Shown here piece after piece: positions 3,227 through 31,371 of a DNA stretch of 42,025 bases. This stretch comes from a virus. A program made the translations under genes and the position numbers. Every line of letters begins with the position of its first letter. Within the stretch, counting starts at the first letter, position 1. Below the pieces are notes generated by a model. That model was not told where the DNA came from, did not search any database, and saw only the letters and a program-made list of their open reading frames with translations. The DNA is taken from positions 1 to 42,025 of the IMG/VR virus record IMGVR_UViG_3300017527_000137, one strand, 5' to 3'.

Positions 3227-5272
3227 ATGTTGAAAAAAGCCAGGAGCTGGATCTCTCGCATTTTGAGAACAAGTCAATGGCCCCCTCCTGCAGATGATGA
3301 CTTCTGGTATAATATACCAGGCCAGGACACTGCAGCAGGGGTCAAGATCAATGAAGAAACAGCCCTGAAGTTTTTGACGGTATCGGCCTGCGTGGGGCTG
3401 GTGGCGGGAGATGTGGCCCAGCTGCCCCTGGTGCTGTATCGAAAAGATGCCCAGGGCACAAAGCAGGTGGTGACAGATCACCCCCTGGCAGAGGTATTCA
3501 AAACAGCTGTCACCCCTGAGATCTCCAAATTCAATTTCCTGGAGACAGGTCAATCCCACCTAATGCTCTGGGGCAACCATTATGCTTTCAAGGTGCCTGG
3601 GGATATGACAGGCAAGCCAGTGGGCCTGATCCCCATTGCCTCTCCTGCATCTATTACACCCCACTTTAACGATCAAGGGGGGATCTCCTATGAGTACACA
3701 CCCAAGGCAGGCAAGCGGACCATCAAGACCAGGGAGGAGATCTTCCATGTGCCAGGCTGGGGATTCAATGGCCTGATAGGCAAGTCACCCATCACCATGG
3801 CCAGGGAGGCCATCGGCCTGGGGGTGGCCAGCCAGAATTTTGGCTCCAAGTATTTTGGCACCGGAATTCATCCCACTGGGGTGGTGGAGATGGAGGCCGA
3901 CCTGGGCGAAAACAGGGATGAGTACCTCAAGGCCCTCAGAAAGCAATATGCAGGCCTGGGAAAGGCCCACTCCATAATGCTCCTTGAGTTTGGGATGCAG
4001 TATAAGCCCATGAGCATGAGCAATGAAGATGCACAATTCATTGAGACCAGAAAGCACCAGGCCACTGAGATCTGTGGCTTTTATCGGGTGCCCCCCCACA
4101 AGGTTGCCATCCATGGGGCCAATAGTAACTACAGCAACCTGGAGCAGGAAAATGCCAGCTATGTCAACACCACCCTGATGCCCTGGCTCAGGAGATGGGA
4201 GGCGGCAATCAACCTGCAGATGCTGACCAGGGAGGAGAGGGGGCAGGGCCTATTTTTTGAATTCAAGGTAGCTGGCTTGCTGAGGGGTGACTCAGTAGCC
4301 AGGGGGGCTTTCTATAGAGAGCTGTTTAACCTGGCGGCACTGAGCCCAAACGAGATCAGGGGCCTGGAAAACATGAACCCTGTGCCAGGGGGGGATCAAC
4401 GGTTTGTAGCTTTGAACATGATCCCACTGGACCAGGCCGGGGAGGGCCAGGACGATGGTGGAGATGGTAGCAATCGGGGCCGTATTATCAGCGTTTCTGC
4501 TGACTCTCCTCTGCTTTTGCCTTTGGAGGATACTGATCTGGGTGCTGTTGAGGGACGGTCCATACAGCATAGGGATCGAATTGCTAAGAGGTACAGGCCA
4601 CTCATTCATGACACTGCTCAGAGGCTTGTCAGCCTTGAGGCGAATGCTATCAGGAGAAAGCTCTCAGCCAGGTCAAAAAGGGAGTGGACTGACTTCATAA
4701 TGTGGCTGGATGAATTCTACAGGGAGCAGCTGCCAGCCAAGATAAAAAGGGCCTTTGGCCCAGTGTTCACCTCCTTTGCCAACAGCATCCTGGATGCCTC
4801 ACAGGAGGAGACCGGGATCTCAGAGCCTCCTGATGATGAGTTTCAAAAATGGTCTGACAGTTACATAGATTATTATGTGGACAGGCACATAGGCTCATCC
4901 ACAGGTCAGCTCAAGGAGCTGCTGGCAGAGGAGGAGCCTGCTGAGGCCATAGAGTCCAGGCTGGATGAGTGGACCGAAAAGAGGGCCGATAAAATCACCA
5001 GCAATGAGACAGTCAGGGGGGCCAGTGCAGTCTTTGCAGCGGTGGCCCTGGCTGGTGGCCTGAGGATGATTTGGAGGATCAGGGGCACCTCCACCTGCCC
5101 CTACTGCAAGCGGCTCAATGGCAAGGTGGTGGGCAGGAATGAAACCTTTGCCAATGATGGTGATGAGATCACAGATGAGAAAGATCAACTCCTCAAAATG
5201 AAAGTCAGGGGAGTGAAAAAGCACCCACCCCTGCACCGGGGGTGTGACTGCTACATTGAGGCTGTGTCATGA
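3227..5272 (+). CDS. portal protein fused to MuF-like head morphogenesis domain
   Basis: 681 residues. Residues 1 to about 420 match HK97-family portal proteins, the dodecameric ring at the capsid vertex through which DNA passes (VSACVGLVAGDVAQLPLVLYR, MLWGNHYAF, FYRVPPHKVAI, ENASYVNTTLMPWL). Residues from about 470 to the end match the MuF/SPP1 gp7 minor head domain and carry its terminal Cys-His pattern: CPYC at 624-627 and HPPLHRGCDC at 666-675. Portal-MuF fusions are known in some phages. The ATG at 3227 has only a weak AGGAC site upstream. It is followed after 36 bases by the protease gene. Confidence 0.92.
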   Translation: MLKKARSWISRILRTSQWPPPADDDFWYNIPGQDTAAGVKINEETALKFLTVSACVGLVAGDVAQLPLVLYRKDAQGTKQVVTDHPLAEVFKTAVTPEISKFNFLETGQSHLMLWGNHYAFKVPGDMTGKPVGLIPIASPASITPHFNDQGGISYEYTPKAGKRTIKTREEIFHVPGWGFNGLIGKSPITMAREAIGLGVASQNFGSKYFGTGIHPTGVVEMEADLGENRDEYLKALRKQYAGLGKAHSIMLLEFGMQYKPMSMSNEDAQFIETRKHQATEICGFYRVPPHKVAIHGANSNYSNLEQENASYVNTTLMPWLRRWEAAINLQMLTREERGQGLFFEFKVAGLLRGDSVARGAFYRELFNLAALSPNEIRGLENMNPVPGGDQRFVALNMIPLDQAGEGQDDGGDGSNRGRIISVSADSPLLLPLEDTDLGAVEGRSIQHRDRIAKRYRPLIHDTAQRLVSLEANAIRRKLSARSKREWTDFIMWLDEFYREQLPAKIKRAFGPVFTSFANSILDASQEETGISEPPDDEFQKWSDSYIDYYVDRHIGSSTGQLKELLAEEEPAEAIESRLDEWTEKRADKITSNETVRGASAVFAAVALAGGLRMIWRIRGTSTCPYCKRLNGKVVGRNETFANDGDEITDEKDQLLKMKVRGVKKHPPLHRGCDCYIEAVS

Positions 5273-5308: not shown

Positions 5309-6025
5309 ATGAAAGCAGGCAGAAAAATGAAAGGAAAAGCTGCAAAAAAAAGAAATGTGATCGACGGGAGAGAGGTCAGGATTGCACCCCTCAACCTGGC
5401 CCTGGAAAGCAGAGCTGACCAGGAGCTGCCCCACATCACTGGTTATGCTGCTGTGTTCAACAAACCCAGTGTTGACATGGGCTTTGTGGAGAGGATTGCC
5501 CCTGGGGCCTTTGCCAAGGCTCTCACCAGGTCTGCCCCTGTGGCCCTGGTCAACCATCAGGTCTCCGAAATCATAGGCAGAGCAGGGGTCAACCTGGACC
5601 TGGCTGAGGACAAAAAAGGCCTGTGGATCGACATCTCTCCTATTGAGACCCCCAGGTTTGAGCAGGTAGTGGCAGAGATCAGGGCTGGCCTGTTTGTGGG
5701 CCAGAGCTTTGGTTTCACTGTCAAGGCCGATGAGTGGCAGGATCTGGATACCGACAAACCCAAACGGCTCATCACAGAGGTGAACCACCTCTATGATGTG
5801 GGGCCTGTGGTATTCCCTGCCTACACTGCCACAGACATTGGTGTGAGGTCTGTGGACCAGGCTCAAAAGACATTAGAGGCTGCACTTGAAGCCTTTCGGA
5901 TTCAAACCAGTGGGATCACTGGAAACCCTGGCAGTGATGATCAGAAGATCAAGGACAGTTATGCCAGGAATTTTGTAAGAGTCAAAACCCTAGCGGCACA
6001 ATTACTTTTTAAAGGAGGGCTGTGA
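5309..6025 (+). CDS. prohead maturation protease
   Basis: 238 residues of the HK97 gp4-like (peptidase U35) family, a serine protease with a herpesvirus-protease-like fold that trims the capsid's scaffolding delta domain. Catalytic candidates: His83 in VNHQVS and Ser133 in GQSFGF. The family opening HITGYAAVFN and the stretch VGPVVFPAY are also clear. It is the normal neighbour between portal and capsid genes and overlaps the capsid start (TGATG). The first 20 residues are basic. The start could instead be the ATG at 5327. Confidence 0.92.
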   Translation: MKAGRKMKGKAAKKRNVIDGREVRIAPLNLALESRADQELPHITGYAAVFNKPSVDMGFVERIAPGAFAKALTRSAPVALVNHQVSEIIGRAGVNLDLAEDKKGLWIDISPIETPRFEQVVAEIRAGLFVGQSFGFTVKADEWQDLDTDKPKRLITEVNHLYDVGPVVFPAYTATDIGVRSVDQAQKTLEAALEAFRIQTSGITGNPGSDDQKIKDSYARNFVRVKTLAAQLLFKGGL

Positions 6026-7362
6026 TGAATTATCTCAAACGACTCCAGGCCAGATATGCAAAGATCCTGGAAAGGATGCAGGAGATTGATGGCCTGCCTG
6101 AGGATGGCTTCACCGATGACATCAGGGCTGAGTTTGAGGGCCTGGTGGCAGAGGCCGAAACCCTGCAGGAAAAGATCAATGTGGCAAAGAGAGCCCTGGC
6201 AGTGTTCAAGGCAGACCAGCCTGCCCCCCCTGCCCCTGGTGACCTGCCCCCAGACCCCAACATGCCTGCCCAGGAGCCCAGAGGTCACCACCCTGCCCAG
6301 ATAACCAGGGACGGGGGGGATGCCCCCTTTGAGGATCTGGGTGAGTTCATGATGGCAGTCTATCGGGCTGCTGGCCCCAATCCCAAATGGGATGACCGGC
6401 TCAACTCCAGAGCTGCCTCTGGTGCCTCTGAGGGGGTGCCCTCAGATGGTGGCTTCTTGGTCCAGACGGATCTGACAAACCAGCTGCTGCAGCTGACCTA
6501 TGCTGCTGGCCAGCTGGCCCCCCGGTGCCTGCGGATTCCCATCGGCCCCAATAGCAATGGCCTGAATGCAAACCTGGTGGCCGAAACCTCCAGGGCTGAC
6601 GGCTCCAGGTGGGGTGGGGTGAGATCCTACTGGGTAGAGGAGGCAGGAGCCCTGACTTCCAGTAAGCCCAAGTTCAGGCAGACTGACATGAAGCTCAAAA
6701 AGCTGGCTGGTCTGTTCTATGCCACTGATGAGCTGCTGGCAGATGCTGTGGCCCTGGAGAATGCTGCTATGACTTTCTTTCCGGCTGAGTTTGCTTTCAA
6801 GCTGGATGATGCCATTGTGGAGGGCAACGGCACCGGGATGCCCCTGGGCTTCAAAAACTGTGGGGCACTGATCAGTGTCACCAAGGAGACCGGACAAGCA
6901 GCCACCACACTTGTCACAGAAAACATCGAAAAGATGTGGATGAGAATGAGCCCCATGAGCAGGTCCAAAGCCATCTGGCTCATTAACAATGACTGCTGGC
7001 AGCAGATCCTGGGCCTCACCAAGAGTGTGGGCACCGGGGGGGCTCCTGTATTCATGCGTCCTGGCTCTGGCATTGTGGATGCCCCTGAGGGCACCCTGTA
7101 TGGCAGGCCCATTGTCAGCATTGAACAGTGCGAGACCCTGGGCACCAAGGGTGACATCTACTTTGTGGATATGAGCAAATACTTGTTGATCGACAAGGGG
7201 GGCATCAAGACTGCTGCCAGCATCCATGTCAGGTTTCTCTACGATGAGATGACCTTTCGATGGATTCTGAGAGTGGATGGCCAGCCCATCCCTGATCAGC
7301 CTTTAACGCCTTTTAAAGGCACAGTCACCACCAGCCCCTTCGTGACCCTGAATGCCAGGTAA
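6025..7362 (+). CDS. major capsid protein, HK97 fold
   Basis: 445 residues. An N-terminal helical delta domain (residues 1 to about 60, charged and coiled-coil-like) is followed by a Pro-rich linker and then the HK97-fold shell domain (GGFLVQTDLTNQLLQL, TSRADGSRWGGV, FRQTDMKLKKLAGLFYATDELL, GNGTGMPLGF, SKAIWLINNDCW). The upstream protease is expected to remove the delta domain. The ATG at 6025 sits 6 bases after AAGGAGG and overlaps the protease stop; a GTG one codon earlier is weaker. This is the main shell protein of the virion. Confidence 0.95.
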   Translation: MNYLKRLQARYAKILERMQEIDGLPEDGFTDDIRAEFEGLVAEAETLQEKINVAKRALAVFKADQPAPPAPGDLPPDPNMPAQEPRGHHPAQITRDGGDAPFEDLGEFMMAVYRAAGPNPKWDDRLNSRAASGASEGVPSDGGFLVQTDLTNQLLQLTYAAGQLAPRCLRIPIGPNSNGLNANLVAETSRADGSRWGGVRSYWVEEAGALTSSKPKFRQTDMKLKKLAGLFYATDELLADAVALENAAMTFFPAEFAFKLDDAIVEGNGTGMPLGFKNCGALISVTKETGQAATTLVTENIEKMWMRMSPMSRSKAIWLINNDCWQQILGLTKSVGTGGAPVFMRPGSGIVDAPEGTLYGRPIVSIEQCETLGTKGDIYFVDMSKYLLIDKGGIKTAASIHVRFLYDEMTFRWILRVDGQPIPDQPLTPFKGTVTTSPFVTLNAR

Positions 7363-7432: not shown

Positions 7433-7927
7433 ATGAAGTGTGACTTCCTTGAGAAACATCACTTTGTCCATGTTGCCCCCAGTGCTATTGTGGCGGCAAA
7501 TGAGGACATCTTCAATGGTGATCCTGAGTCTGATGTGGTCAGCCTGCAAGAGGCTGACGGCATTGTTTTCATGATCATCACCAATGCCAATGCGGCAGGG
7601 GGCAATGCATCTGTCTATGTGTATGCCTGCGACGATACCACCCCTGCCAATACCACCCCCATCCCCTTCAAGTATCGGGCAATCACTGGGGCAGATACCA
7701 CACAGCCCATCTCAAGTGCCACCAGTGCAGGGTTTCTCACCTCCACTGGTGCGAACCATGTCTATATTGTGGAGGTGGATGCTGCTGATGTGCAGGCTGT
7801 GTCTGGCAGGGAGTTTTGCCAGCTGCACTGCATCGAGGTGACAAACCAGACTGTTGACGGGGCAATCATAGCGTTGCTGACGGGGTTACGCTATGCCGGG
7901 GAGAATGTCAGATCCCAGGTTGCCTAG
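7433..7927 (+). CDS. probable capsid decoration or minor structural protein
   Basis: 164 residues directly after the capsid gene, with a strong CAGGAGG site. The sequence alternates like a beta-sandwich and is rich in Ala, Thr and Val, without cysteine clusters, signal peptide or enzymatic motif. Position and size are typical of head decoration or capsid-stabilising proteins, but no family motif is recognised, so the role is inferred from context. A strong hairpin follows. The glycosyltransferase gene comes next and might act on this protein. Confidence 0.7.
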   Translation: MKCDFLEKHHFVHVAPSAIVAANEDIFNGDPESDVVSLQEADGIVFMIITNANAAGGNASVYVYACDDTTPANTTPIPFKYRAITGADTTQPISSATSAGFLTSTGANHVYIVEVDAADVQAVSGREFCQLHCIEVTNQTVDGAIIALLTGLRYAGENVRSQVA

Positions 7928-7989: not shown

Positions 7990-8661
7990 ATGAGCAAGCA
8001 CAAAAAGAAACCAGCCGGAGATCCTGCCAGGATAAAGCTGGGCCTGGCCCTGCCCTGCACTGATGCCTTTATGCCCACACCCTTTGTGGACAGCTTTATC
8101 TGCCAGAGCAGGCCTGGCTTTGTCTACCTCAGGCCCACCTCTCATGGCCCCATCTACACTGTCAGGAATGAGCTGGTGGACCAGGCGCTCTCCCAGGGCC
8201 TGGAGTATATCCTCTGGATGGACACTGACCAGATCTACCCTGCTGACAGCTTCTATCAGCTGATCAATCACAGGAAAGACGTTGTAGTGGGCAAGACTCA
8301 CAGAAGATACCCTCCATATGATCCCATCCTGCTGAGAGGCAAGATGGGCAGCTGGGAGTCAGTGCCTGTGGAGGAGTGGGGCAAGGGGGGCCTGGTGGAG
8401 GTGGACAGCACTGGCTTTGGTTGTGTGCTGATCAAAACAAAAGTGTTTGAGGCCCTGGAGAGGCCCTACTTTGACCTGGTGTATACAGAGGAGGGCAAGC
8501 CCATTGGTGAGGACTTCTACTTCTGGGCAAAGGTCAAGGCAGCTGGTTTCAGAATTTTTGTGGACTGCTCTCTGAAAATTGGGCATCTCAAGTATACTGT
8601 GATCAATGAGCAGTCATACCATGCATATCAAGTCTCAAAGCCACAGGAACAGGTGGCATAA
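7990..8661 (+). CDS. GT-A type glycosyltransferase, copy 1
   Basis: 223 residues with a nucleotide-sugar transferase core: YTVRNELVDQAL, then the metal-binding DxD in WMDTDQ (78-80), RRYPPYDPIL (105-114), STGFGCVLI and GEDFYFWAKVKAAGF. It is clearly paralogous to the gene at 19913-20572, which keeps DTDQ, RRYPPFDPIL, ETGFGF and GED-xxx-AKAAGF. The site AGGAGGCGATAG precedes the ATG. It is the first gene of the cassette between capsid and connector genes and lies next to the likely decoration gene. Glycosylation of virion or surface proteins is a reasonable inference; donor and acceptor are unknown. Confidence 0.85.
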   Translation: MSKHKKKPAGDPARIKLGLALPCTDAFMPTPFVDSFICQSRPGFVYLRPTSHGPIYTVRNELVDQALSQGLEYILWMDTDQIYPADSFYQLINHRKDVVVGKTHRRYPPYDPILLRGKMGSWESVPVEEWGKGGLVEVDSTGFGCVLIKTKVFEALERPYFDLVYTEEGKPIGEDFYFWAKVKAAGFRIFVDCSLKIGHLKYTVINEQSYHAYQVSKPQEQVA

Positions 8662-8674: not shown

Positions 8675-9649
8675 ATGAAACGCCTTTCGATCATCCTGGC
8701 TGCTGTACTGGTGGCCTGTCTAATCACTGCCCCTGCCTTTGCAGGGTGGTCCACTGTATTCTCCAAGAAACAACCAGGGGGCAGCTTTCTGGCTGCTGAC
8801 ATTGCCAAGGTCACTGGCGGCTCCATCTTCTTTGTGGACGGTAACACTGGCACTGATGCGGCTGGCTATGGCCAGAGCCCTGACAGCCCTGTGGACACTC
8901 TTGATTATGCCATCGGCCTCTGCACTGCCAATAAAGGCGACATCATTTATGTCTTTGCCCAACACGCAGAGACTGTCACTGCTGCCATCACTGCTGACAT
9001 TGCTGGCATCACTATTGTGGGCATGGGCCATGGGAACAGCAGGCCCACCATCACAGGCAATGGCACCATTGATGCCATGACGGTGACTGCCAATGATGTC
9101 ACCATTATGAACCTGATTTTTGCAGCCCCAGGCACCGATGCCCAGACGGCTGACATCAACATTGCTGCAGCCAGGTGCAGTGTGATCAACACTGTCCACC
9201 ATGGCAGTGACACTGGCGATAATAAAGTTGACATTATCACCATCACTGCTGCAGGCCATGATGCCTATCTGGATGGGGTCAGAATCTACAATGACACTGT
9301 GGAGTGTGTGGGTGGTATAACCTTGGAGGGGGCAGCTGCCAGAGTGGTGATCAAGGACACTATGGTTTTTGATAGTGTGGGGTTTACCAATGGCAGCTTA
9401 TCTGATGAGGCCACTGCCACTGCCCTGTTTGTAGTGGACAGCTACTTCTCCAATGCAAAGGCCGATACTGTCAACCTTGAATTCGGGAATAATACCACAG
9501 GCATGATGGTCAACTGCTTTTCCAATGGCAGGCACACCACCATTGGGTCCAACATTGCCCCTGGCACAGGCATGGCATTCTATGAGACCTACACTGTTGA
9601 GGAAGCAGCCAAAAATGGTATGCTCTCTCCAGCAGTGGATGCCGACTAA
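8675..9649 (+). CDS. exported right-handed beta-helix protein
   Basis: I start at the ATG at 8675, which follows AAAGGAGGG and opens a clear Sec signal peptide (MKRLSIILAAVLVACLITAPAFA, cleavage before GW, about residue 24). The mature part of about 300 residues looks like a pectate-lyase-type beta-solenoid: GSIFFVDGNTGTD, PDSPVDTLDYAI, then repeated Val/Ile/Asn-Gly rungs (ITIVGMGHGN, VTIMNLIF, VVIKDTMVFDS). Such folds bind or cut polysaccharides in tail spikes, but a signal peptide is abnormal for a virion protein. It lies between a glycosyltransferase and a sulfotransferase. Catalytic residues are not evident. Confidence 0.85.
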   Translation: MKRLSIILAAVLVACLITAPAFAGWSTVFSKKQPGGSFLAADIAKVTGGSIFFVDGNTGTDAAGYGQSPDSPVDTLDYAIGLCTANKGDIIYVFAQHAETVTAAITADIAGITIVGMGHGNSRPTITGNGTIDAMTVTANDVTIMNLIFAAPGTDAQTADINIAAARCSVINTVHHGSDTGDNKVDIITITAAGHDAYLDGVRIYNDTVECVGGITLEGAAARVVIKDTMVFDSVGFTNGSLSDEATATALFVVDSYFSNAKADTVNLEFGNNTTGMMVNCFSNGRHTTIGSNIAPGTGMAFYETYTVEEAAKNGMLSPAVDAD

Positions 9650-9675
9650 ACCCAGGGCAGCTGGAGGCGGGAAGG

Positions 9676-10239
9676 GTGAAAACAATCATCGTTCTTGGAA
9701 TGCACCGAAGTGCCACCTCTCTCATAGCAAAAGGCCTGCATGAGGCCGGGGTCTGGATGGGGGAGAGGCTCCTGGGGGCCTCTCCTTCCAACACTCACGG
9801 GCATTTTGAGAACCTTGATTTTGTGGCCCTCAATGACTACCTCCTCAGCCAGGCAGGGGGCTCCTGGGATAATATCCCAGCCCTGGACAGGATCATAGAA
9901 GCTGGGGCAAAGAATGCAGGGGCCATCCAGAGGACCATCCTGTGCAACATCAGGCAACCTGTCTGGGGCTGGAAAGACCCCAGGACCACACTCACCATCC
10001 CTGCCATCTATCCCTACATCAAAAAGTATAGCCCTGTTTTTGTGCCCTGCTTTAGGGCACCCAAGGATGTGGCGGCATCTCTTGAAAAAAGAAACGGAAT
10101 GCACCCAGCCGATGGGGAGAGGCTGGCCAGGGGCTATAACGCCAGGCTGCTTTCCTTTCTTACTGAATTCCTGGAGGTGGAGAAGTTTGGCAATTTCTAC
10201 AATTTTACCCCATCAGCCGAAGTGGTGGGGGGTGCTTAA
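9676..10239 (+). CDS. PAPS-dependent sulfotransferase family protein
   Basis: 187 residues with the PAPS-binding loop at the N-terminus (VLGMHRSATSL, residues 6-16), followed by the family stretches ERLLGASPSNTHGHFEN, LDFVALND, GWKDPRTTLT and APKDVAASLEKRNGM, matching bacterial and phage sulfotransferase-like proteins (Sulfotransfer_3 type). The start is GTG at 9676, after GGAGGCGGG. It probably moves sulfate onto a carbohydrate or protein. The next gene, another glycosyltransferase, follows with a TAATG overlap, so a sulfated glycan is an attractive but unproven product. Confidence 0.85.
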   Translation: MKTIIVLGMHRSATSLIAKGLHEAGVWMGERLLGASPSNTHGHFENLDFVALNDYLLSQAGGSWDNIPALDRIIEAGAKNAGAIQRTILCNIRQPVWGWKDPRTTLTIPAIYPYIKKYSPVFVPCFRAPKDVAASLEKRNGMHPADGERLARGYNARLLSFLTEFLEVEKFGNFYNFTPSAEVVGGA

Positions 10240-10838
10240 TGCAAGTATCAATCCTCATCCCCTACATCAGGCCAGAGAATATTGAGCAGGTGATGCACCT
10301 GGCTGTCAAGAATGCAGGCATCCCGGCCCCTGAGATCCAGATCCTGGCTGAGTATGACCAGGGCAGGGTAGGGTGCCCATTGATGGTCAAGAGGCTTGTG
10401 AGCAGGGCCTCAGGCAGCTATTTGTGCTTTATCGGGGATGATACCAGGCCCCTGCCAGGGTATTTGAAACATGCCATCGACCAGATGGCCCTGCTGCCTG
10501 ACGGCTGGGGCCTGGTGGGGTTCGATGACCTAAGTGGCAGGATACTGCCCACCCACTTCCTGGCAGACAGGAGGGTGCTGGACCTGCTGGGGGGTGAGCT
10601 GTTTCACACTGGGTACAGGCACTGCTTTTGCGATAATGAGTTGATGGACAGGCTGACTGCTAAAGGACGTTTTCTTTATTCAAAACTGGCTGTGGTGCTG
10701 CATGACAACCCCATTGTCAAGGGCACTGAGATCACTGGTGAGTATGCCAAAATATATCATAGCAACCAATATGTCAGAGACCAGATGCTGTACTTTAAAA
10801 GAAAAAAAGGGGGGTTTCCAAATGAAAAGCATTCATAG
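10239..10838 (+). CDS. GT2-like glycosyltransferase
   Basis: 199 residues. The start SILIPYIRPENIEQ and the DxD-like GDDTRPLPGYL (66-76) are those of inverting GT-A glycosyltransferases of family 2 type. A downstream CDNELMDRL segment fits the acceptor and catalytic region. The ATG overlaps the sulfotransferase stop. Its 3' end overlaps the start of the next exported-protein gene by 17 bases. It is not closely similar to the paralogous pair at 7990 and 19913. Acceptor unknown. Confidence 0.82.
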   Translation: MQVSILIPYIRPENIEQVMHLAVKNAGIPAPEIQILAEYDQGRVGCPLMVKRLVSRASGSYLCFIGDDTRPLPGYLKHAIDQMALLPDGWGLVGFDDLSGRILPTHFLADRRVLDLLGGELFHTGYRHCFCDNELMDRLTAKGRFLYSKLAVVLHDNPIVKGTEITGEYAKIYHSNQYVRDQMLYFKRKKGGFPNEKHS

Positions 10839-11283
10839 ACTTTGCCTGGCCATCATCCTCTGCCTGGCCTTTGCTGTGCCAGGGTTTGCAGCTGAGTCCA
10901 CCACCCCCACATATTACAACCCAGGCAGGCAGGCCTTTGTGGTCAAGATTGCATGGGTAGCTGCTGCTGGTGCCACCCATGCAGACTATGCCATCCCGTC
11001 AGCTGCCATGGATGTGATCCTGGCTGGGGGCTACTACCTGTTCAAAGCCAGGACAGTGCCCTCTGGGGTGGCTGTGCCAGCTGCAAACTATGACCTGACC
11101 CTGGACACTGCCAATGGCTTTGATGTCCTGGATGGCAACCTGGCCAACAGGTCCGACACTGCCACAGAGATTGCTGTGCCCAGTGTCTATGCAGAGCCAA
11201 TAGTGGACCAGCTGACGGTCACCTTTGCAAACCTGGGGGCCAATGGGGCTGGTGATTTGTATCTATACTTTGCAAGATATTAA
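10822..11283 (+). CDS. exported protein of unknown function
   Basis: 153 residues starting at the ATG at 10822, after GGGGGG. A signal peptide is visible (MKSIHRLCLAIILCLAFAVPGFA, cleavage before AES, about residue 23). The mature domain of about 130 residues is beta-rich (FVVKIAWVAAAGATHADYAI, YYLFKARTVPSG, YDLTLDTANGFDVLDG, QLTVTFANLGANGAGDLYLYF) and resembles small beta-sandwich structural modules of phage tail or capsid proteins. It has no cysteine and no enzyme motif. It is one of five adjacent signal-peptide genes. Confidence 0.8.
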   Translation: MKSIHRLCLAIILCLAFAVPGFAAESTTPTYYNPGRQAFVVKIAWVAAAGATHADYAIPSAAMDVILAGGYYLFKARTVPSGVAVPAANYDLTLDTANGFDVLDGNLANRSDTATEIAVPSVYAEPIVDQLTVTFANLGANGAGDLYLYFARY

Positions 11284-11295
11284 GAGGTGACCAAA

Positions 11296-12918
11296 ATGAG
11301 AAAACTATTCATAGCCACAGCCATGGCAGCTCTGCTCTGCTTTTCCTCTTTTGTTGCCTCTGGCCCCTTCCCCTATCCCACTGGCACTGCCGGGGGTGAC
11401 TTTGACTTGGATGGTGGCAAGCTCATCCTGGATGCAGATGGGGATACCTATTTTGAAGAAACAAGCGATGATGTAATCCGTTTTTACGCCTCCGGTCAGG
11501 CTTATGACTTTGGGCAAGCTGGGATATATCGAGCTACTGCCGGCCGAACTTCTATTCGCTTTGATACTGCGGGATCATTTTCGGGCGCTAACTATGGATT
11601 CTACTCCGATGGGAATACCGGCATGCTGCGATATGATGCCGATCAACTTGCATTCGCCGCTGGCGGCGTCGAAGCCCACCGCATAGTCGAAGCGAACTCC
11701 ATTGTCTATCAGATTTTCGGTTCGACTCAACAGGATAGCGTAACCGATTCCACCACTGATGGGACCACTGCACTCACCAAGGCTGGAGACAACTTTGCCA
11801 CCACCTGTCAGGTGGGTGATGCAGTCCTGATCTGGGGTGGCACCACTACTGCCGACTATGGCGTATATTATATCACAGTGGTTGTGTCTGACACTGAGCT
11901 GACCCTGAACACAGCACCATCTGGCAGTGACGCAGATGTTGACTTCTACGTCTTTAGGAATGGCACCATCCAGACAGGTGAGAGAACCTATTATCTGGAG
12001 GGCACTGCCACAGCAGGTGAGTCTCCCGATATCATAGGCTCCATCCATGAAGCAGGGCTGGGGGATCGGTTGACGTTTGGGCTGGATGAGGCAACAAGGT
12101 CAATGGTCGTTTGTGATGCCGGGGATGTTGATAAAGACTATGGCCTCACTGTAAATGCTGATCCAACATTTTCCTTATATAATGCAGCAGGGAACAAGAG
12201 GGCCGATATTGCCTGGAATATGTTCTATGGCCGAAGTGATGTTGTAAATATAATGGGCTATTATGGTGTTCGGCTTGCATTGTTTGGTGACATGGCCTCA
12301 GGCAGTCCCTTCACAATAGATTCAGATGCTGCAAAAGAACTGACCGACACAGACAATGAGCAAAACTGGCTGAATGTCCTTCCGAAAATCAATCAGTCTG
12401 CCACCGCCTCCTATAATGGCCTCAAAATCTATATCACTGAAACAGCCACTGGGGATGGCACCACTGGCACTGCTGGCCAAAATACCCTGATCCTGGCAGG
12501 CACAGACAGTGATGACGATGCCTTCATAGTGGACACTTCTGGCAACCTGGAAACCCCTGTGGAGTGCAAGACTAACAAGGCATCAGAGCTGAGTGACAAC
12601 TCAGACCCCCACTCTCTGGTGGTCAGAGAGCTGCACAACATCATTCTGACCAACAGTGAATCAGCTGGGGCCGATGAGTGGGACTTCCCTGCCAGGGCTG
12701 AGGGCTGGAATTTTATCTTCATTATTGAAGCAGCCCAGAACGTGACCCTGGACCCCAATGGTGCAGAGCAGTGGTATCTCAATGGCACCCAGCTGGCAGC
12801 AGGTGAGGCTGTAGTCAACACAGCCCCCACAGTGGGTGAGTCCATTACTTGTTTCTCAACTGAGTCAGCAGTCTACTGTGAGAGTGCCTATGCTGACTGG
12901 ACTGAGGAGACCCCTTAG
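11296..12918 (+). CDS. exported tail-fibre-like beta-repeat protein, mosaic composition
   Basis: 540 residues from the ATG at 11296 (6 bases after AAGAGGTG; a GTG at 11287 is weaker). The N-terminus is a signal peptide (MRKLFIATAMAALLCFSSFVAS). Residues about 40-130 carry short Asp/Gly-rich beta motifs (GGKLILDADGDTYFEE, DDVIRFYASGQ, IRFDTAGSF, GMLRYDADQLAFAAGG) as in phage fibre shafts. A C-terminal domain (NIILTNSESAGADEWDFPA...GAEQWYLNGTQLAAG) resembles structural receptor-region modules. Bases about 11455-11755 are rich in CG, unlike the flanks, which indicates recombination inside the gene. An exported fibre-like protein is unusual; function unknown. Confidence 0.8.
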   Translation: MRKLFIATAMAALLCFSSFVASGPFPYPTGTAGGDFDLDGGKLILDADGDTYFEETSDDVIRFYASGQAYDFGQAGIYRATAGRTSIRFDTAGSFSGANYGFYSDGNTGMLRYDADQLAFAAGGVEAHRIVEANSIVYQIFGSTQQDSVTDSTTDGTTALTKAGDNFATTCQVGDAVLIWGGTTTADYGVYYITVVVSDTELTLNTAPSGSDADVDFYVFRNGTIQTGERTYYLEGTATAGESPDIIGSIHEAGLGDRLTFGLDEATRSMVVCDAGDVDKDYGLTVNADPTFSLYNAAGNKRADIAWNMFYGRSDVVNIMGYYGVRLALFGDMASGSPFTIDSDAAKELTDTDNEQNWLNVLPKINQSATASYNGLKIYITETATGDGTTGTAGQNTLILAGTDSDDDAFIVDTSGNLETPVECKTNKASELSDNSDPHSLVVRELHNIILTNSESAGADEWDFPARAEGWNFIFIIEAAQNVTLDPNGAEQWYLNGTQLAAGEAVVNTAPTVGESITCFSTESAVYCESAYADWTEETP

Positions 12919-12919
12919 A

Positions 12920-14188
12920 ATGAAAAAGCTATTGCTTGCAACTATAGCCCTGCTGCTTTCCCCTGCCATTGCCTGTGCTGGTGCTGCCCTGATGACAGCA
13001 GCACAGCCAGCTGGTGGATCAGTCATTGTCAGAGTCACCCCTGTACTAGCAGCTGGTGAGAGGGGCGGGTTGATTATTTGCGGGAACGGGCCGGAATCGT
13101 TTACTGCCATTGCATTAGGCGATGACGATATGGAGGACGATGACTCGAGTTGGCTGGATGATTCGCTTGACGGTGGAGAAACGCAGGCCCAATCAGCCGC
13201 GCAAAAACACGGTGGATCGAATTCTCGCTTTATTGACCAGGCCGACGATAACGAGGGGATGTATCAGGTTTTTGGATCGCATACCTCTGGTGATTTGTTC
13301 CAGGTTGAGGCCTGGGCCTATTCGACTTCTGGCAACACACGGACACGGCTATGGGATGGTGCTACAGCTTGTATAAATGCGACTCATACTATACACGGGA
13401 CTGCCACATGGGTAAAATGCCTATCGCGGGGAACCTCCGCAAATACTGGCAACCATCAACTAATGATGGAAGTATCGTCGGCGGATTCTCAAATTTACTA
13501 TGACGATATTTCCATCAACAAAATCAATGCCCCTCTAACCGCCCTAATCTGCGAAATCGACCGCACCCAAGACTTGCTAATTCTGACGAAACGGGTTGCC
13601 GGCACCGAAACAGTTTTAATTTCTGAAAGCATTACTTACGCCGATAATCATGAGTTGGTAGTGGTCAAGGAAGGTCAGTCGGTTGTTGTTTTTTATACTG
13701 ATGCGGGAGACAACGACAACATCCAAATCGGCGCGACTCAAACTGTCACCGAAACATACGGACGACGGCATTATACGACCGGCGACGATTCGAGCTTCAC
13801 CGGATACTCTCATAAAATGTTGGCGATAGGCATAGACAAAATATCAACCTGGGCGAATATTAGTTTTGATACGTTTACCTCAAGTGGCACGGCGATCACC
13901 TCTGCTATAGATACAGAACCCGCGGGTGGTTATGCCGCCGCAGAGGCCACCTTATCTGCCGGTAGCATCTATCGAATAGAAGTTGTTTTAACATTAAATA
14001 GTGGTGATTCACCCGACGTCATGGTCGGTAGCGGTCAAGAAAATATGACAAGGCAAAACCTTTCGGCAGGGTCAAATATTTATTATTTTATCTGTGTCGC
14101 TACTTCTGGAAATAAGGACCATTTATATTATTACAGCCCGGTTTTAAGTAATTTTTCATCAACGCACAAGATGGAACTGGTCAAATAA
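12920..14188 (+). CDS. exported protein, mostly within a CpG-rich foreign segment
   Basis: 422 residues from the ATG at 12920, two bases after the previous stop, with GAGGAGA upstream. Signal peptide MKKLLLATIALLLSPAIACAG. A central part (about residues 90-200) looks like a carbohydrate-binding jelly-roll: FQVEAWAYSTSGNTRTRLW, ATWVKCLSRG, QIYYDDISI. Later residues resemble a second beta domain (HELVVVKEGQSVVVFYTDAGD). From about 13060 to its end the DNA is rich in CG and AT-richer, unlike the phage backbone, while its first 140 bases match the backbone. The body was therefore probably acquired by recombination under a resident signal peptide. Confidence 0.8.
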   Translation: MKKLLLATIALLLSPAIACAGAALMTAAQPAGGSVIVRVTPVLAAGERGGLIICGNGPESFTAIALGDDDMEDDDSSWLDDSLDGGETQAQSAAQKHGGSNSRFIDQADDNEGMYQVFGSHTSGDLFQVEAWAYSTSGNTRTRLWDGATACINATHTIHGTATWVKCLSRGTSANTGNHQLMMEVSSADSQIYYDDISINKINAPLTALICEIDRTQDLLILTKRVAGTETVLISESITYADNHELVVVKEGQSVVVFYTDAGDNDNIQIGATQTVTETYGRRHYTTGDDSSFTGYSHKMLAIGIDKISTWANISFDTFTSSGTAITSAIDTEPAGGYAAAEATLSAGSIYRIEVVLTLNSGDSPDVMVGSGQENMTRQNLSAGSNIYYFICVATSGNKDHLYYYSPVLSNFSSTHKMELVK

Positions 14189-14553
14189 TGAAAACACTAT
14201 TTCTCGCAATCCTACTATTCCCGGCGCTTTGCTTCGCCGATTCCGCGATTTTCAAGGTGCCGATTGATCCGGCAAAGATTGGAGACGAAACGGCGCAAGC
14301 GATGGCGGCACTCAGGGGAAAGTATGCTGGTGACATGGTGCTTGGCTACAGCCTGCTAGAGTCCACCACTAATCTGGCAGAGCCAGGTGTGGTCCTGGTC
14401 AGGGTGACTTTCCACCCCAAAAAGGATGCCAAGAAAACAGCCCAGGCCATTGTAGATGAGCTGAAAGCAAAGCCTGACGTATCAAGCGGTACTGGCGATG
14501 ATTTAAAGTCCTTTAAAATCCAGCATGTCAAAACAATGATCTCAGAAAAATAA
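14188..14553 (+). CDS. exported small protein spanning a composition boundary
   Basis: 121 residues. The ATG overlaps the previous stop (TAATG). Signal peptide MKTLFLAILLFPALCFA, then an alpha/beta domain (VVLVRVTFHPKKDAKKTAQAIVDELKAKP) with one repeating beta-helix-beta unit. Bases up to about 14325 are CpG-rich like the preceding gene; after that the backbone composition returns (AGG, CTG, GCC codons). The right recombination edge therefore lies inside this gene. No family recognised. Confidence 0.75.
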   Translation: MKTLFLAILLFPALCFADSAIFKVPIDPAKIGDETAQAMAALRGKYAGDMVLGYSLLESTTNLAEPGVVLVRVTFHPKKDAKKTAQAIVDELKAKPDVSSGTGDDLKSFKIQHVKTMISEK

Positions 14554-14567
14554 ATGGAGGTGACAGA

Positions 14568-14870
14568 ATGAAAGCCCTGCTGATTATCCTGGCCCTGTCT
14601 CTGGCCCTGCCCTGTGCAGCTGCTGAGTACGTTGTCAAAACGAAAGACTTCACAGTGTACTCAACTGACGATGTGATTGTGCAGGAGACTGTCACGGTTG
14701 AGCAAACTGAGGATTACACCCTGAGATATGTCAACCGGACCTTGGCTGCTACCAATGCAGCCATCACAGATCTCCAGGCAAAGAAAGCAGAGCTGGAAGC
14801 CATCAAGGTTATCCTTGACGATAAGGTCAAGGGTGTAAAGCTGAAGGAAAAGGAGCTGGCACCTGAATGA
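14568..14870 (+). CDS. exported coiled-coil protein
   Basis: 100 residues with GGAGGTGACAG before the ATG. Signal peptide MKALLIILALSLALPCAAA. A short beta part follows (EYVVKTKDFTVYSTDD), then a helical, probably coiled-coil C-terminus (ITDLQAKKAELEAIKVILDDKVKGVKLKEKELA). A periplasmic coiled coil near lysis genes can hint at a spanin-like or membrane-bridging role, but there is no transmembrane anchor or lipobox here. The end overlaps the next start (ATGA). Confidence 0.78.
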   Translation: MKALLIILALSLALPCAAAEYVVKTKDFTVYSTDDVIVQETVTVEQTEDYTLRYVNRTLAATNAAITDLQAKKAELEAIKVILDDKVKGVKLKEKELAPE

Positions 14871-15313
14871 GGATCACGGGAGAGCAAATACAGGCACTGT
14901 TCCAGGGGGTGGCAGGCAGGACTGTTGAGAAAAACCCCACCCCTGACAGGGCTTTCTGGGCTGCATCCCTGGCAAAGTATGAGTCCATCCTGTCTGAGCA
15001 GTATGCGTACAGCTACAGGTGGACCCCTGAAGTGTTTGACTGTGATGACTTTGCCCTCATAGTCTCTGCCTTTGTCAGGCAGAACAGGTACAAGGAGATG
15101 ATGGAGAGGGGCCTGGCCCTGGAGCAGAGATATGCCCTGGCCTTTGGCAGGGTATTCGTGCCAGGTCATGCCATCTGCTTTTTTGTCACAGATGAGGATG
15201 GGATGGGCAGGCTCTATTATTTTGAGCCCCAGAAAGTCCTCCATGAGAGCAAGGCCATCTGGAGGCCTGAGCCAGGCAGCAATGCTGACAGCCCCCAATA
15301 CTATGAGTTGTGA
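14867..15313 (+). CDS. papain/transglutaminase-like cysteine-hydrolase-fold protein
   Basis: 148 residues. The arrangement TPEVFDCDDFALIV (Cys59), PGHAICFFV (His101) and YYFEPQ (Glu120) matches the Cys-His-Glu order of transglutaminase-like and lectin/agglutinin-domain cysteine-hydrolase folds seen in phage and bacterial proteins. Without a signal peptide it is cytoplasmic or carried in virions. It is coupled to the exported coiled-coil gene (ATGA). It could cleave or crosslink peptide bonds in the cell wall or in phage proteins; substrate unknown. Confidence 0.65.
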   Translation: MRITGEQIQALFQGVAGRTVEKNPTPDRAFWAASLAKYESILSEQYAYSYRWTPEVFDCDDFALIVSAFVRQNRYKEMMERGLALEQRYALAFGRVFVPGHAICFFVTDEDGMGRLYYFEPQKVLHESKAIWRPEPGSNADSPQYYEL

Positions 15314-16073: not shown

Positions 16074-16562
16074 ATGGATGTGGCTATTGTGCATGAGGTG
16101 AAAGCCCCAATGGAGATGACACTCAGCCAGGTGGCAGAGATGATCAAGGGCCGGGAAGTCTTGGTCCTGCATGTCTACAAGTGCCCAAATGGGTTTCTCA
16201 CCTGTGGCTGGGGCCATAAGGTCTGCACGGGTGACAAGATCACCCAGGAGGAAGCAGACAGGCTCTGGGAGCTGGACTTTCAGGAGGCTGTGGAGGGTTA
16301 CCGGAAGCTGGGCCTGGAGCTAGATCCTGTCAGGAGGGCTGTGATCATAGACATGATCTTCAACCTGGGCCTGGCAGGGGTCAGGGGCTTTAAAAAAATG
16401 CTGGCAGCAGTCAGGGCTGGTGATTTTGACAGGGCCTCTCAGGAGATCCTGGATTCAAAATACTCCAAGGTGGATCATGAGAAGTCCATCAGGGATGATG
16501 TGAATGCCAACATGATGAGAACGGGGGTGTATCATGGGGATGAAGTGGAACAAATGGGTTAA
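16074..16562 (+). CDS. endolysin, GH24-type lysozyme
   Basis: 162 residues of the phage lysozyme (GH24, T4/P22-like) family, which hydrolyses the glycan strands of peptidoglycan. The active-site row reads E28, C37 and T43 (KGREVLVLHVYKCPNGFLTCGWGHK); Cys replacing the T4-type Asp is known in one branch of the family. The core NLGLAGVRGFKKMLAAVRAGDFDRA is typical. No signal peptide, so release needs a holin. The start has GAGAGGG upstream. The end overlaps the next gene. Confidence 0.92.
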   Translation: MDVAIVHEVKAPMEMTLSQVAEMIKGREVLVLHVYKCPNGFLTCGWGHKVCTGDKITQEEADRLWELDFQEAVEGYRKLGLELDPVRRAVIIDMIFNLGLAGVRGFKKMLAAVRAGDFDRASQEILDSKYSKVDHEKSIRDDVNANMMRTGVYHGDEVEQMG

Positions 16563-16737
16563 GGGCCTGATCAGTGCTGCTATTGGTGGTGCTGCAAATA
16601 CCATTGTGGCTGCAGGCATTGCCCCAGAGACTTTTAACCTGGGAGAGGGCCTGCCCAAACTCCTGGCCATGGCAGGGGCAGGGGCCTTGCTGGCTGTGGC
16701 CAATTACCTCAAACAAAGCCCATTGCCTAAAGAATGA
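16534..16737 (+). CDS. holin-like small membrane protein
   Basis: 67 residues with two hydrophobic helices (KGLISAAIGGAANTIVAAGI and LLAMAGAGALLAVANYL), separated by APETFNLGEGLPK, and the ending LKQSPLPKE. This pattern matches a widespread family of small phage membrane proteins next to endolysins. The start (ATG at 16534, or 16540) overlaps the lysozyme 3' end, and its stop overlaps the next start. A role in membrane permeabilisation is inferred from family and place. Confidence 0.75.
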   Translation: MGMKWNKWVKGLISAAIGGAANTIVAAGIAPETFNLGEGLPKLLAMAGAGALLAVANYLKQSPLPKE

Positions 16738-17270
16738 ATGACCAGGGCATATATAGCAGCATCAGGCTGGGCCTGGACACTGGAGACCGGCTGGAGTTTG
16801 CCCACCAGGATGACTCTATCTCCCAGACAATCATGGCCAGGACAGGCAGCTACTCCTCCCACACTGGCATGGTGATCAGGAGCAGGGAGTTCAACAGGGT
16901 ATTTGTCATTGAGAGCCTGGAGGGTGGGCCAGAGCTTAACCGCTTGTCTACCCGTGTAGGCTCCTACAATGGCCATGTCTGGGTCTGCAAGCTCAGGGAT
17001 GAGTACCACCACCTGAGGATAAAGATAGGCCAGTGTGCCCTGGATTACGTTGACACAGGCTATGACTGGATTGACACAGGCAAGCAGCTATTTGTCAGGG
17101 TGCCCCCTGACGATGAACGGCTCAACTGCAGTGAGTTTGTCTACTTTGCCCTGTATAATGCGGGAATATTCGGGCAGCAGCTGCTGGATAAGGCCCCATG
17201 GCCTGGGAGGGAGATGGACAGGCTGGGGGCCTGGCACATCAAAACCCTGATCAAGGAGGCGGCAAAATGA
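16734..17270 (+). CDS. permuted NlpC/P60-like (YiiX-type) hydrolase
   Basis: 178 residues with the circularly permuted NlpC/P60 order: His43 in SSHTGMVI, Glu60 in VFVIESLE, then Cys132 in LNCSEFVYFAL near the end. Such enzymes cleave peptide, amide or lipid ester bonds, often in cell-wall or envelope components. It lies between the holin-like gene and the lipoprotein gene, so it may assist lysis or modify the envelope. The virion-associated alternative cannot be excluded. The 3' end overlaps the next start (ATGA). Confidence 0.78.
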   Translation: MNDQGIYSSIRLGLDTGDRLEFAHQDDSISQTIMARTGSYSSHTGMVIRSREFNRVFVIESLEGGPELNRLSTRVGSYNGHVWVCKLRDEYHHLRIKIGQCALDYVDTGYDWIDTGKQLFVRVPPDDERLNCSEFVYFALYNAGIFGQQLLDKAPWPGREMDRLGAWHIKTLIKEAAK

Positions 17271-17944
17271 AAGCATTGAGGCTGGCGATCATCATTTTTT
17301 TGGCCCTTACCCTGTCAGGCTGCATCCTCATGGTGGGGGGTGCCAAGCGGGTTCAGCCCCTGGACAAGGGGCCACTGGATGAGGCTTTCTTCAAGCCCTC
17401 AGACTTCCCGGCTGCAGGCCCTGGTGCTGGCCCCATAAAGGGGGTGGAGACTTTCTATGGCATAGTGATCAGGGCCAGGCTGCAGGAGGGTGACACAGCC
17501 CTGATAGACATTGCCAAGGATTATGCGGTCACAGTGCTGGGCGCAGACCTGCTGAAGCTCAGAAAGCAAGTGCAGGAGCCCTCTCCAAACCCCACCCCCA
17601 CCCCCTCCCCTGTAGTGGAGCCAGGGCCTGAACCCGGACCAGGCCCTGCGCCTCCAGCGGAAAAGCAGCTGGGGGCCATAGTGGAAAAGGGCCTTTGGAA
17701 GCCTGTGTCTGAGGGGGATGGCAAGCTGGCCATTGCCCAGAAGCAGGCCAGCCCTGGCAGTGCTGGGGCCAGGTGCAATGACCCCAGGATAGGGGATGAG
17801 GTGGGTGAGTATGTGGGCCAGGAGGGGCACCAGAGGCATGTCTGGAGATTTAATCACCCTGGCTCTCACTACACTGGCCAGGTGCTGCACTTCTGCTCAG
17901 GGCAGTACCGTGTTCATGATGGCAGCAAGCGGTGGGGGAAGTGA
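17267..17944 (+). CDS. Pro-rich lipoprotein, possible outer-membrane lysis component
   Basis: 225 residues starting at the ATG at 17267, after AAGGAGGCG. The N-terminus is a lipoprotein signal with lipobox LSGC (Cys19). A globular part of about 90 residues (VETFYGIVIRARLQEGDTALIDIAKDYAV) is followed by a Pro-rich linker (residues about 108-135, PNPTPTPSP...PGPEPGPG) and a C-terminal domain with two cysteines and HVWRFNHPGSHYTGQVLHFC. Lipid-anchored Pro-rich proteins next to lysozyme and holin can be outer-membrane spanin subunits, but this one is larger than usual. Confidence 0.75.
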   Translation: MKALRLAIIIFLALTLSGCILMVGGAKRVQPLDKGPLDEAFFKPSDFPAAGPGAGPIKGVETFYGIVIRARLQEGDTALIDIAKDYAVTVLGADLLKLRKQVQEPSPNPTPTPSPVVEPGPEPGPGPAPPAEKQLGAIVEKGLWKPVSEGDGKLAIAQKQASPGSAGARCNDPRIGDEVGEYVGQEGHQRHVWRFNHPGSHYTGQVLHFCSGQYRVHDGSKRWGK

Positions 17945-18735
17945 TGAGATTGACACTTGTGACAGGCCCAAGCTACATGCCTGTGACCCTGGCTGAGGTC
18001 AAGGTCCACCTCAGGATCACAGACACTGACAATGATGAATATCTGCAGAGCCTGATCCTGATGGCCACCCTCAGTGTGGAGGAGTTTCTCAAGAGGAGGC
18101 TGATCACCCAGACCTGGCAGCTGCACCTGGACAGGTGGCCTGATGGCAATGAGATAGTGCTGCCCATCGGCCCTCTGGCCTCTGTCACCCATGTCAAATA
18201 CACAGACACAGCAGAGAGCCAGTCAACCCTGTCCTCTGCTAACTACTCTGTGAAAACAGCAGGCACTGGCAGGATCATCCTGGACTATTCGGAGGCCTGG
18301 CCCACAGATGCCCTGTGGCCAGCCGACCCCATAGAGGTCCAGTTTGTGGTGGGCTATGGTGCCCACACCCCCCAGGCAATTACCGGGGCCACCAATGCCA
18401 CCCCCATAGTGCTGACGGCGGTGGGCCATGGGTACTCCACAGCCAACAGGGTCAAGGTGGTGGATGTGGGGGGCAATACCAATGCCGATGGCCAGTGGAC
18501 CATTGAGAAGGTGGGGGCCGATACCTTCAAGCTGCTGGGCAGTGCAGGTGCTGCAGAATATACCAGCGGGGGCACAGTGACCCTGCTCTCAGTGCCTGAG
18601 GCCATCAGGCAGGCCATGCTGCTGCAGATCTCTGGGGCCTATGAGGTGAGAGAGCCCATAGTCATTGGCACCATCACCAGTGAGGTGCCCATGATCTGGA
18701 GACTGCTCAACCCTTACAGGTACTGGGCGAATTAA
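17944..18735 (+). CDS. head-tail connector (HK97 gp6-like) with an inserted beta domain
   Basis: 263 residues. Residues 1-140 match the N-terminal part of gp6-like connectors (PVTLAEVKVHLRIT, DEYLQSLILMATLSVEEFLKR, DRWPDGNEIVLPIGPL). Residues 218-263 match the C-terminal helix (VPEAIRQAMLLQISGAYEVRE). Between them, about 145-215, sits a beta-barrel-like module (ATNATPIVLTAVGHGYSTANRVKVVDVGGNT...GTVTLL) resembling domains annotated in phages as E1 FCCH-like. It connects portal to tail, and the module probably decorates the neck. The start overlaps the lipoprotein stop (TGATG). Confidence 0.85.
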   Translation: MRLTLVTGPSYMPVTLAEVKVHLRITDTDNDEYLQSLILMATLSVEEFLKRRLITQTWQLHLDRWPDGNEIVLPIGPLASVTHVKYTDTAESQSTLSSANYSVKTAGTGRIILDYSEAWPTDALWPADPIEVQFVVGYGAHTPQAITGATNATPIVLTAVGHGYSTANRVKVVDVGGNTNADGQWTIEKVGADTFKLLGSAGAAEYTSGGTVTLLSVPEAIRQAMLLQISGAYEVREPIVIGTITSEVPMIWRLLNPYRYWAN

Positions 18736-19912: not shown

Positions 19913-20572
19913 ATGTTTGAGGGGAAAAGGATAGGCATAGGCTGGCCCATAGTTTCCAGGCGGGTGGATGTGGAGTTTGCTGCCACCTTCCTGCTCATGG
20001 ACAAACCCTTTGACTGGACCCTATATCTGCCATCGTTTCCAGCCGGGGAATTCCAGAGGAGCATTGCCTCAGTGAGAAACAACATTGCACAGAGGATGCT
20101 GGGGGATGGCATGGATGAGTGCATCTTCATGGACACAGACCAGGGCTTTGAGCCTGATGCCCTGGTCAAGATACTCTCCCATGATGTGCCCATTGTGGCA
20201 GGGGTGGTACATAGGAGGTATCCTCCTTTTGACCCCATCCTGATCAGGCTCAAGGATGGCAAGCCCAGCTATATCTCACCACAGGAGGCATACAGTGGTG
20301 AGCTGCTAGAGGTGGATGAAACGGGGTTTGGCTTTGTGAGAATTCAGTCCGATGTGTTCATGGATGTGCCCTGGCCCTGGTTTGAGTTCAGGAAAGATAA
20401 GAATGGCAAGGATATTGGAGAGGACATCCACTTCTATAGGCAAGCAAAGGCTGCAGGGTTTCCCCTGCATGTTGACACAAGCATCCAGTGCAGGCACTTT
20501 GCACACATAGCGGTCAATAGAGAGCTGCATGAGATCTTCCTGGACAGCAAGGGCATCACGGACCTGAGCTAA
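19913..20572 (+). CDS. GT-A type glycosyltransferase, copy 2
   Basis: 219 residues, paralogous to the gene at 7990-8661: VRNNIAQRML, the metal-binding DxD in FMDTDQ (74-76), RRYPPFDPIL (101-110), ETGFGFVRI and GEDIHFYRQAKAAGFPLHVD. AAAAGGAGGCGAAAAC precedes the ATG. It is inserted between the tail terminator and tail tube genes, while copy 1 sits next to the capsid decoration gene. Each copy may therefore modify the adjacent virion protein; donor and acceptor are unknown. Confidence 0.85.
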   Translation: MFEGKRIGIGWPIVSRRVDVEFAATFLLMDKPFDWTLYLPSFPAGEFQRSIASVRNNIAQRMLGDGMDECIFMDTDQGFEPDALVKILSHDVPIVAGVVHRRYPPFDPILIRLKDGKPSYISPQEAYSGELLEVDETGFGFVRIQSDVFMDVPWPWFEFRKDKNGKDIGEDIHFYRQAKAAGFPLHVDTSIQCRHFAHIAVNRELHEIFLDSKGITDLS

Positions 20573-30940: not shown

Positions 30941-31371
30941 AAAAGCAGATTGCAGTGGCAGAGTACACCCCAGTGATCAGGGGCATCATGCCCATTGAAA
31001 ATGCACTGGCCCTGAGAGTGACCACTATCAGCAAGAAGATTGCAGAGCAGATGCCCGATGGCATCTGGCCCTCTGATGATGGGGCATTCTTTAAAAACTT
31101 CACTTTCATTGGCCACACCCCTGCCCTGGATAAATACATCTTCAAGGCTGAAGTGTCTGGGGAGTTCAGGAAGGTGGGCCATCTTGATATGGTGGAGTGG
31201 CTCATTCTGGAAAAGGCTGAGGTGGCCGGGATGCTGTGGGTGGGCAAGGCCAATTACACCCCTGTGGATCACATGGCCCTCATGGCCCCAGCAGAGCAGG
31301 CCAGGCTCAGGGATGAGGCCCAGGATGAGCTGCACAAACTCAAGGCCAGAAACCAGCTGTTTCTCAAATAG
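30937..31371 (+). CDS. hypothetical protein carrying the 41-bp repeat
   Basis: 144 residues, alpha/beta, starting in an ATGA overlap. Residues about 97-109 (AGMLWVGKANYTP) are encoded by a 41-bp stretch identical to one inside the gene at 35414-36091. There it is part of a conserved domain, whereas here it is followed by an unrelated helical tail (APAEQARLRDEAQDELHKLKARNQ). Function unknown. Confidence 0.72.
   Translation: MKKQIAVAEYTPVIRGIMPIENALALRVTTISKKIAEQMPDGIWPSDDGAFFKNFTFIGHTPALDKYIFKAEVSGEFRKVGHLDMVEWLILEKAEVAGMLWVGKANYTPVDHMALMAPAEQARLRDEAQDELHKLKARNQLFLK
31224..31264 (+). repeat. 41-bp exact repeat, copy 1
   Basis: Identical to 35728-35768, in the same orientation and reading frame relation (encoding GMLWVGKANYTP in both proteins). 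It begins GGCCGGGATG and ends TTACACCCCTG. Flanking sequence differs immediately on both sides. Confidence 0.95.

Follow-up and report, generated by a model that had tools for sequence, protein, structure and literature searches.

Sec signal peptides on a head-module gene block of a tailed phage: predicted export and a possible route to the virion

Tailed phages are generally regarded as making their virion proteins in the cytoplasm, and a gene with a signal peptide is read as a non-virion gene. The 42,025-base viral record IMGVR_UViG_3300017527_000137 (the window), assigned to a tailed phage by its gene content, carries a block of genes with Sec signal peptides (tagged genes) within its head module. 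Are the products of this block exported and, if so, do they act outside the virion or become part of it?

From the start of the + strand, the window contains the large terminase (split), portal, protease, capsid gene 6022, gene 7433, the tagged block and a lysis cassette, followed by the head-tail adaptor (17932), closure, terminator, tail tube, tape measure and J-like tail tip (25442) genes. Replication genes occupy the far half, with the small terminase last. Since structural, lysis and replication genes and both terminases are in the record, it appears to be a near-whole tailed-phage genome. No integrase of the usual kinds and no repressor were seen among the genes scanned. The large terminase (140–2832) consists of two pieces, which correspond to positions 169–473 (140–1201) and 466–669 (2155–2832) of one PHROG and enclose two ORFs, one of Zn-ribbon and one of methyltransferase-like type; its counterpart in L146, a sister genome, is unsplit (a single 611-aa ORF). 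The following genes frame the block, and the head-tail adaptor gene closes it in the window phage and its relatives alike.

6022–7362, + strand: major capsid protein, HK97-type (PHROG major head protein, 2.6e-39)
7433–7927, + strand: small protein 3' of the capsid gene, possible decoration protein (equal slot in related loci)
17932–18735, + strand: head-tail adaptor (PHROG 442, 7.7e-28)

The block itself comprises the following predicted features.

8675–8743, + strand: Sec signal peptide of 23 aa (signal rule, start inspection)
8744–8818, + strand: adaptor at the mature N-terminus, GWSTVFSKKQPGGSFLAADIAKVTG (profile 16.2 bits; capsid-type partition; low pLDDT)
8819–9649, + strand: right-handed beta-helix domain, spike-like (AlphaFold2 pLDDT 89)
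10822–11283, + strand: signal peptide and jelly-roll protein, decoration-like (signal rule, model, untagged relatives beginning MAGTVTIT)
11296–12918, + strand: signal peptide and fibre-like protein (tagged, 52% identical relative in locus L026)
12920–14188, + strand: signal peptide and 402-aa protein (signal rule; relative not found)
14188–14553, + strand: signal peptide and 104-aa protein (signal rule)
14568–14870, + strand: signal peptide and 81-aa protein (signal rule)

A sequence-only reading of this DNA had named six Sec signal peptides, and all six were recovered, each showing a short n-region with positive charge, a hydrophobic core free of charges and a cleavage motif of the small-X-small type. 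With the predicted cut marked by ^, they read MKRLSIILAAVLVACLITAPAFA^G (8675), MKSIHRLCLAIILCLAFAVPGFA^AES (10822), MRKLFIATAMAALLCFSSFVAS^G (11296), MKKLLLATIALLLSPAIACA^G (12920), MKTLFLAILLFPALCFA^D (14188) and MKALLIILALSLALPCAAA^E (14568); for 10822 and 12920 the cut was read by eye, and the placement by our script differs by a few residues. The same reading had described five of these genes as adjacent, which is borne out, 8675 being separated from 10822 by genes 9676 and 10239. It had also proposed signal peptide prediction as a check. This was run with our own rule (n-region, core and cleavage motif; the strict form adds a ribosome-binding site) rather than with SignalP, and the products showed the sequence features of Sec and signal peptidase I substrates. 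With the lipoprotein gene 17267 as the seventh tagged gene, the strict form accepted five of the seven (55 genes scored) and missed 11296 and 14188, both of which were taken by the looser form and have signals that are typical by eye. A single stretch of 16 genes holds all seven (for a given block, P = 6e-5). Chance hydrophobic N-termini were dismissed as an explanation, because the strict rule called only 3 ORFs when applied to 123 antisense ORFs, and only 1 gene among 240 that lie further away in related loci. Ribosome-binding sites were found upstream of the tagged starts, the one at 14188 being weak, and 11296 and 12920 are likely the true starts rather than those of longer mechanical ORFs. 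Within the tagged genes scanned, no further start had a clear ribosome-binding site of its own from which an untagged form could arise, and dual starts yielding a tagged and an untagged product per gene were dismissed on this ground.

The mature 8675 protein was modelled as a right-handed beta-helix (AlphaFold2 pLDDT 89) preceded by ~25 poorly ordered residues, and the model resembled polysaccharide lyases and phage tailspikes among known structures (Z 20–25, VIA). Two products had been said to look like spike or fibre proteins; the model supports this for 8675, and for 11296 the likeness to a fibre comes from the sequence only. Like 8675, beta-helix tailspikes and polysaccharide lyases have a short adaptor on the N-terminal side of a right-handed beta-helix. 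Tailspikes, however, are tail parts, whereas the 8675 gene is located in the head module, between the capsid and head-tail adaptor genes. The tail tip encoded by the window itself (25442) has a C-terminal beta-helix and, unlike 8675, no signal. The mature 10822 protein was modelled as a jelly roll (pLDDT 85) with middling PDB matches to capsid chain H of cyanophage Pam1 (Z 8.0) and the KHP40 cement protein (Z 7.0), which, for so common a fold, is no more than consistent with a decoration role. The structure prediction set was without the database record L027. Neither 8675 nor 10822 had a Pfam or PHROG match above chance, and a few members of their families showed weak PHROG matches. Sequence matches in the PDB to coronavirus spike and to designed Pizza proteins were rejected, as they seem to reflect repeats or composition.

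The same series was to be sought in related phages. An alignment scan with the beta-helix family yielded 80 viral loci, and the N-terminus of each was read. About 80 phage contigs have a member of this family following the major capsid gene. Almost all members are untagged and begin with the adaptor (such as MAKTELFVRKTSGGVYVV...TTGNIFFVDSG), in most cases preceded by a ribosome-binding site. Tagged members were found in the window, L005 (= L047), L041 and L086, and in each the cut site coincides with the start point of the untagged relatives, as in ^SKTELFVR of L041 compared to (M)AKTELFVR of an untagged form. A later scan added tagged L142 and L144, which are near relatives of L086; weak signal calls in L070, L087, L098 and L101 were set aside as false. 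A second family shows a comparable pattern, with untagged N-termini MAGTVTIT or MAGTVTQT and, behind signals, VGTLTVTD or AVGTVTQT. In a third family L013 and L026 are tagged, and L094, L099 and L100 are untagged.

Tagging extends over whole blocks in these relatives. Based on the signals of the next genes, three consecutive genes are tagged in L005, three in L041, four in L086 and six in the window, and L144 has at least four if one gene missed by the rule is counted. Neighbouring genes were tagged in 4 of 4 tagged compared to 2 of 37 untagged loci (dereplicated, window included; Fisher p = 1.5e-4), and both of the latter cases look like false calls. A tagged block is present in L005, L041, L086 and L144 as well, and in the L144 genome tagged genes are confined to the stretch between the capsid and connector genes. 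As an exception, L130 has a single tagged, fibre-like gene (4069–4770) adjoining an untagged one. Genes 12920, 14188 and 14568 are without relatives for a comparison of tagged and untagged forms.

These data support export of the block products from the cytoplasm well at the level of sequence, because the signals are complete, persist with drifting sequence where the mature parts have diverged by about 50%, and coincide with fewer cysteines. Cysteine was roughly halved in tagged helices (0.6–1.7%, compared to a mean of 2.1% in untagged ones; p = 0.012; four sequences, partly dependent). Export driven by a need for disulfides was dismissed, since cysteines are fewer in tagged forms, not more. 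The hydrophobic N-termini might instead remain uncleaved as membrane anchors, or be unused, with the proteins acting in or at the cytoplasm as the untagged ones do. The failure of two of the six signals under the strict rule would fit such a reading, export and cleavage being predictions. However, the placement of small-X-small motifs at the adaptor boundary, the persistence of the signals under drift and the depletion of cysteine all argue against it, and we consider it very unlikely.

Whether exported products could still belong to the virion depends on the residues that follow the cut. A profile of the adaptor, covering the first ~25 residues and built from untagged members that share the capsid type of the window, scored ≥16 bits in 52 of 52 loci with this capsid and ≤3.1 bits in 24 of 24 loci with another. 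Adaptor presence thus matched capsid type in 76 of 76 scored loci, a count that overstates the number of independent events as the loci are related; four further loci end before the capsid gene and were left out. The profile took the place of a regular-expression test for the adaptor, which had proved too loose. The scores of the tagged lineages fell inside the leave-one-out range of the untagged ones, and the adaptor behind the signal therefore seems to be under a constraint similar to that in untagged forms. The helix domain of the window protein groups with L024 and L028, which are of podophage type and have another capsid, whereas its adaptor is of siphophage type and matches its own capsid, indicating that adaptor and helix were exchanged. 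Searches with the adaptor profile for other gene types found none. In seven loci (L011, L013, L014, L017, L131, L133 and L138) the slot behind the capsid gene holds other proteins, which begin with a motif like MPVTNVKSxWxSGxLVF and then diverge. This motif is perhaps a second head adaptor; its profile comparison with the LF..GG adaptor was weak (P 0.02), and kinship of the two is only possible.

The linkage between adaptor and capsid also bears on the idea that the family functions outside any virion, as glycan-binding or glycan-degrading enzymes which are mostly freed by lysis and in a few phages by Sec. The fold is common among glycan-active enzymes, and one uncultured relative is annotated as a lacto-N-biosidase. 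Arguing against this idea are the constant position of the gene after the capsid gene, the change of adaptor with capsid type and, in the window, the combination of a helix akin to podophage-type relatives with a siphophage-type adaptor. We regard this explanation as improbable. A virion role of the untagged relatives is suggested by gene position and adaptor-capsid linkage.

The sequence-only reading had considered the products to be probably in the periplasm or on the surface of infected cells, since virion proteins assembled in the cytoplasm carry no signal peptides. Their departure from the cytoplasm agrees with our data. A non-virion status does not follow from it, as the untagged relatives lie in the head module by the capsid gene and the mature N-terminus retains an adaptor that tracks the capsid. 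Of the three roles that had been considered, an unusual mode of addition to virions agrees best with our data. We tentatively favour, at slightly less than an even chance, a mechanism in which accessory head proteins would be exported via Sec, held outside the cytoplasm and docked on heads at lysis. The segment 8675–14870 would provide a beta-helix spike, a jelly-roll decoration-like protein and fibre-like proteins, with Sec signals placed before N-termini of the cytoplasmic type. Late in infection the products would pass through SecYEG, and signal peptidase I would remove the signal, baring an adaptor equal to that of the untagged relatives. They would gather outside the cytoplasm while heads fill inside, until lysis by holin and endolysin mixes both pools and the adaptors dock on the freed heads. 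We infer these steps, above all docking after lysis, and dilution at lysis would count against docking. The product of 7433 as the docking partner of the adaptor is a guess. That exported protein could meet filled heads at lysis is suggested by the lysis cassette (endolysin 16074, amidase 16734, a lipoprotein and small membrane proteins), which follows the block.

16074–17944, + strand: lysis cassette (phage lysozyme 16074, small TM protein 16534, C92-type amidase 16734, lipoprotein 17267)
17267–17944, + strand: Pro-rich lipoprotein, last gene of the lysis cassette (lipobox; relatives searched, none found)

The lipoprotein had been counted with the secreted series. Its lipobox (LTLSG^C) confirms the lipoprotein signal, but it more likely belongs to the adjoining lysis cassette than to the spike block, and it may be a spanin. 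The gene 5' of the cassette (14867–15313) has a weak Agglutinin_C match slightly below the cut-off.

The main rival to docking is that the exported products stay with the cell or its surroundings, in the periplasm, on its surface or in the medium, where they would bind or trim surface glycans, block superinfection or keep progeny from adhering to debris in the manner of T5 Llp, the head-type N-terminus being a relic or serving another ligand. To our knowledge, the single exported proteins with such roles, T5 Llp and lambda Lom, have no virion-type relatives. Like the block products, they are phage-encoded, signal-bearing and found in the envelope, whereas the window has a gene block with untagged relatives in the head module. 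T5 Llp blocks receptors and limits loss to cell fragments (PMC9586334), and lambda Lom is an exported envelope protein (PMC12309495). A surface role would accord with the signals, the glycan-lyase-like helix and the glycosyltransferase-like genes among the block, and the block shares with Llp-type superinfection exclusion proteins the presence of a signal peptide or lipobox. Against it stand the position of the genes in the head module, from capsid to connector, the tagging of a whole block rather than one gene and, as our main reason for preferring a virion role, the adaptor, which is kept equally in tagged and untagged lineages. We thus consider a pure surface role unlikely, if deserving of more than passing weight.

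Capsid decoration and head fibre proteins such as T4 Hoc and the phi29 head fibres offer a comparison for a virion role. The block resembles decoration and head fibre proteins (Pam1 chain H, KHP40 cement) in its head-module position next to the capsid gene and in the fold of 10822. However, these have no sequence match to the block proteins, the block proteins carry Sec signals, and their attachment to heads is putative. As decoration and head fibre proteins are cytoplasmic and without signal peptide, the block products are not ordinary members of this group.

The tagged forms did not form a single clade. In the tree of mature helix domains they required three changes in every bootstrap tree inspected, and one gain by descent of the helix gene was rejected (AU p = 0.005). 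The tag therefore arose or was moved at least twice, judging from these trees. In the capsid tree the window and L005 were sisters, L041 was distant and the placement of L086 was not resolved. As this tree unites the window and L005, inheritance with the backbone, combined with exchange of the helix domain, is likely for these two. More generally, some tailed phages may build two-compartment virions, with cytoplasmic heads and Sec-exported spikes and decoration proteins that mature outside the cytoplasm and are joined to the heads at lysis, and with more than one origin by block-wide tagging; this is a real possibility, which we put forward with some doubt, and only about four tagged lineages were found. 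The occurrence of a tagged head-type block in more than one lineage makes the rule that virion proteins are cytoplasmic testable, and tagged and untagged relatives sharing one adaptor are clear test pairs. Docking after lysis, if true, would be a new step in phage assembly; without docking, the block would represent a means by which phages convert parts of the virion for use as exported tools. In both cases it would account for a class of secreted proteins that are hypothetical in phage contigs from the environment. Our literature search, made within one library of papers, found no report of Sec signals on head proteins of tailed phages, which is weak evidence of novelty. For the two main families (beta-helix and jelly-roll), no relative was found in cultured phages, isolates or proteomes. 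A host search with the capsid profile covered 395 genomes from the phylum to which one relative belongs and gave matches in 6 of them; the tagged block was in none of the four regions read.

Lone tagged fibre-like genes were observed elsewhere (L088: 7794–9329, L031: 10971–11540, L033: 8954–9532), and the protein of L088 shows kinship, in its C-terminal part, with tail-fibre and virion proteins of cyanophages. Glycosyltransferase-like or sulfotransferase-like genes lie within the head and tail modules of the window (7990–8661, 9676–10838 and 19913–20572); 7990 and 19913 are apparent paralogues, with relatives in L018, L025 and L147. The replication half contains an IS110-like transposase gene (36528–37472; Transposase_20, phrog_4285, E 8e-27). 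Two exact repeats each link otherwise unrelated genes in frame, one of 41 nt (31224–31264 and 35728–35768; peptide AGMLWVGKANYTP) and one of 29 nt (23184–23212 and 41194–41222; peptide ADGIISSNR).
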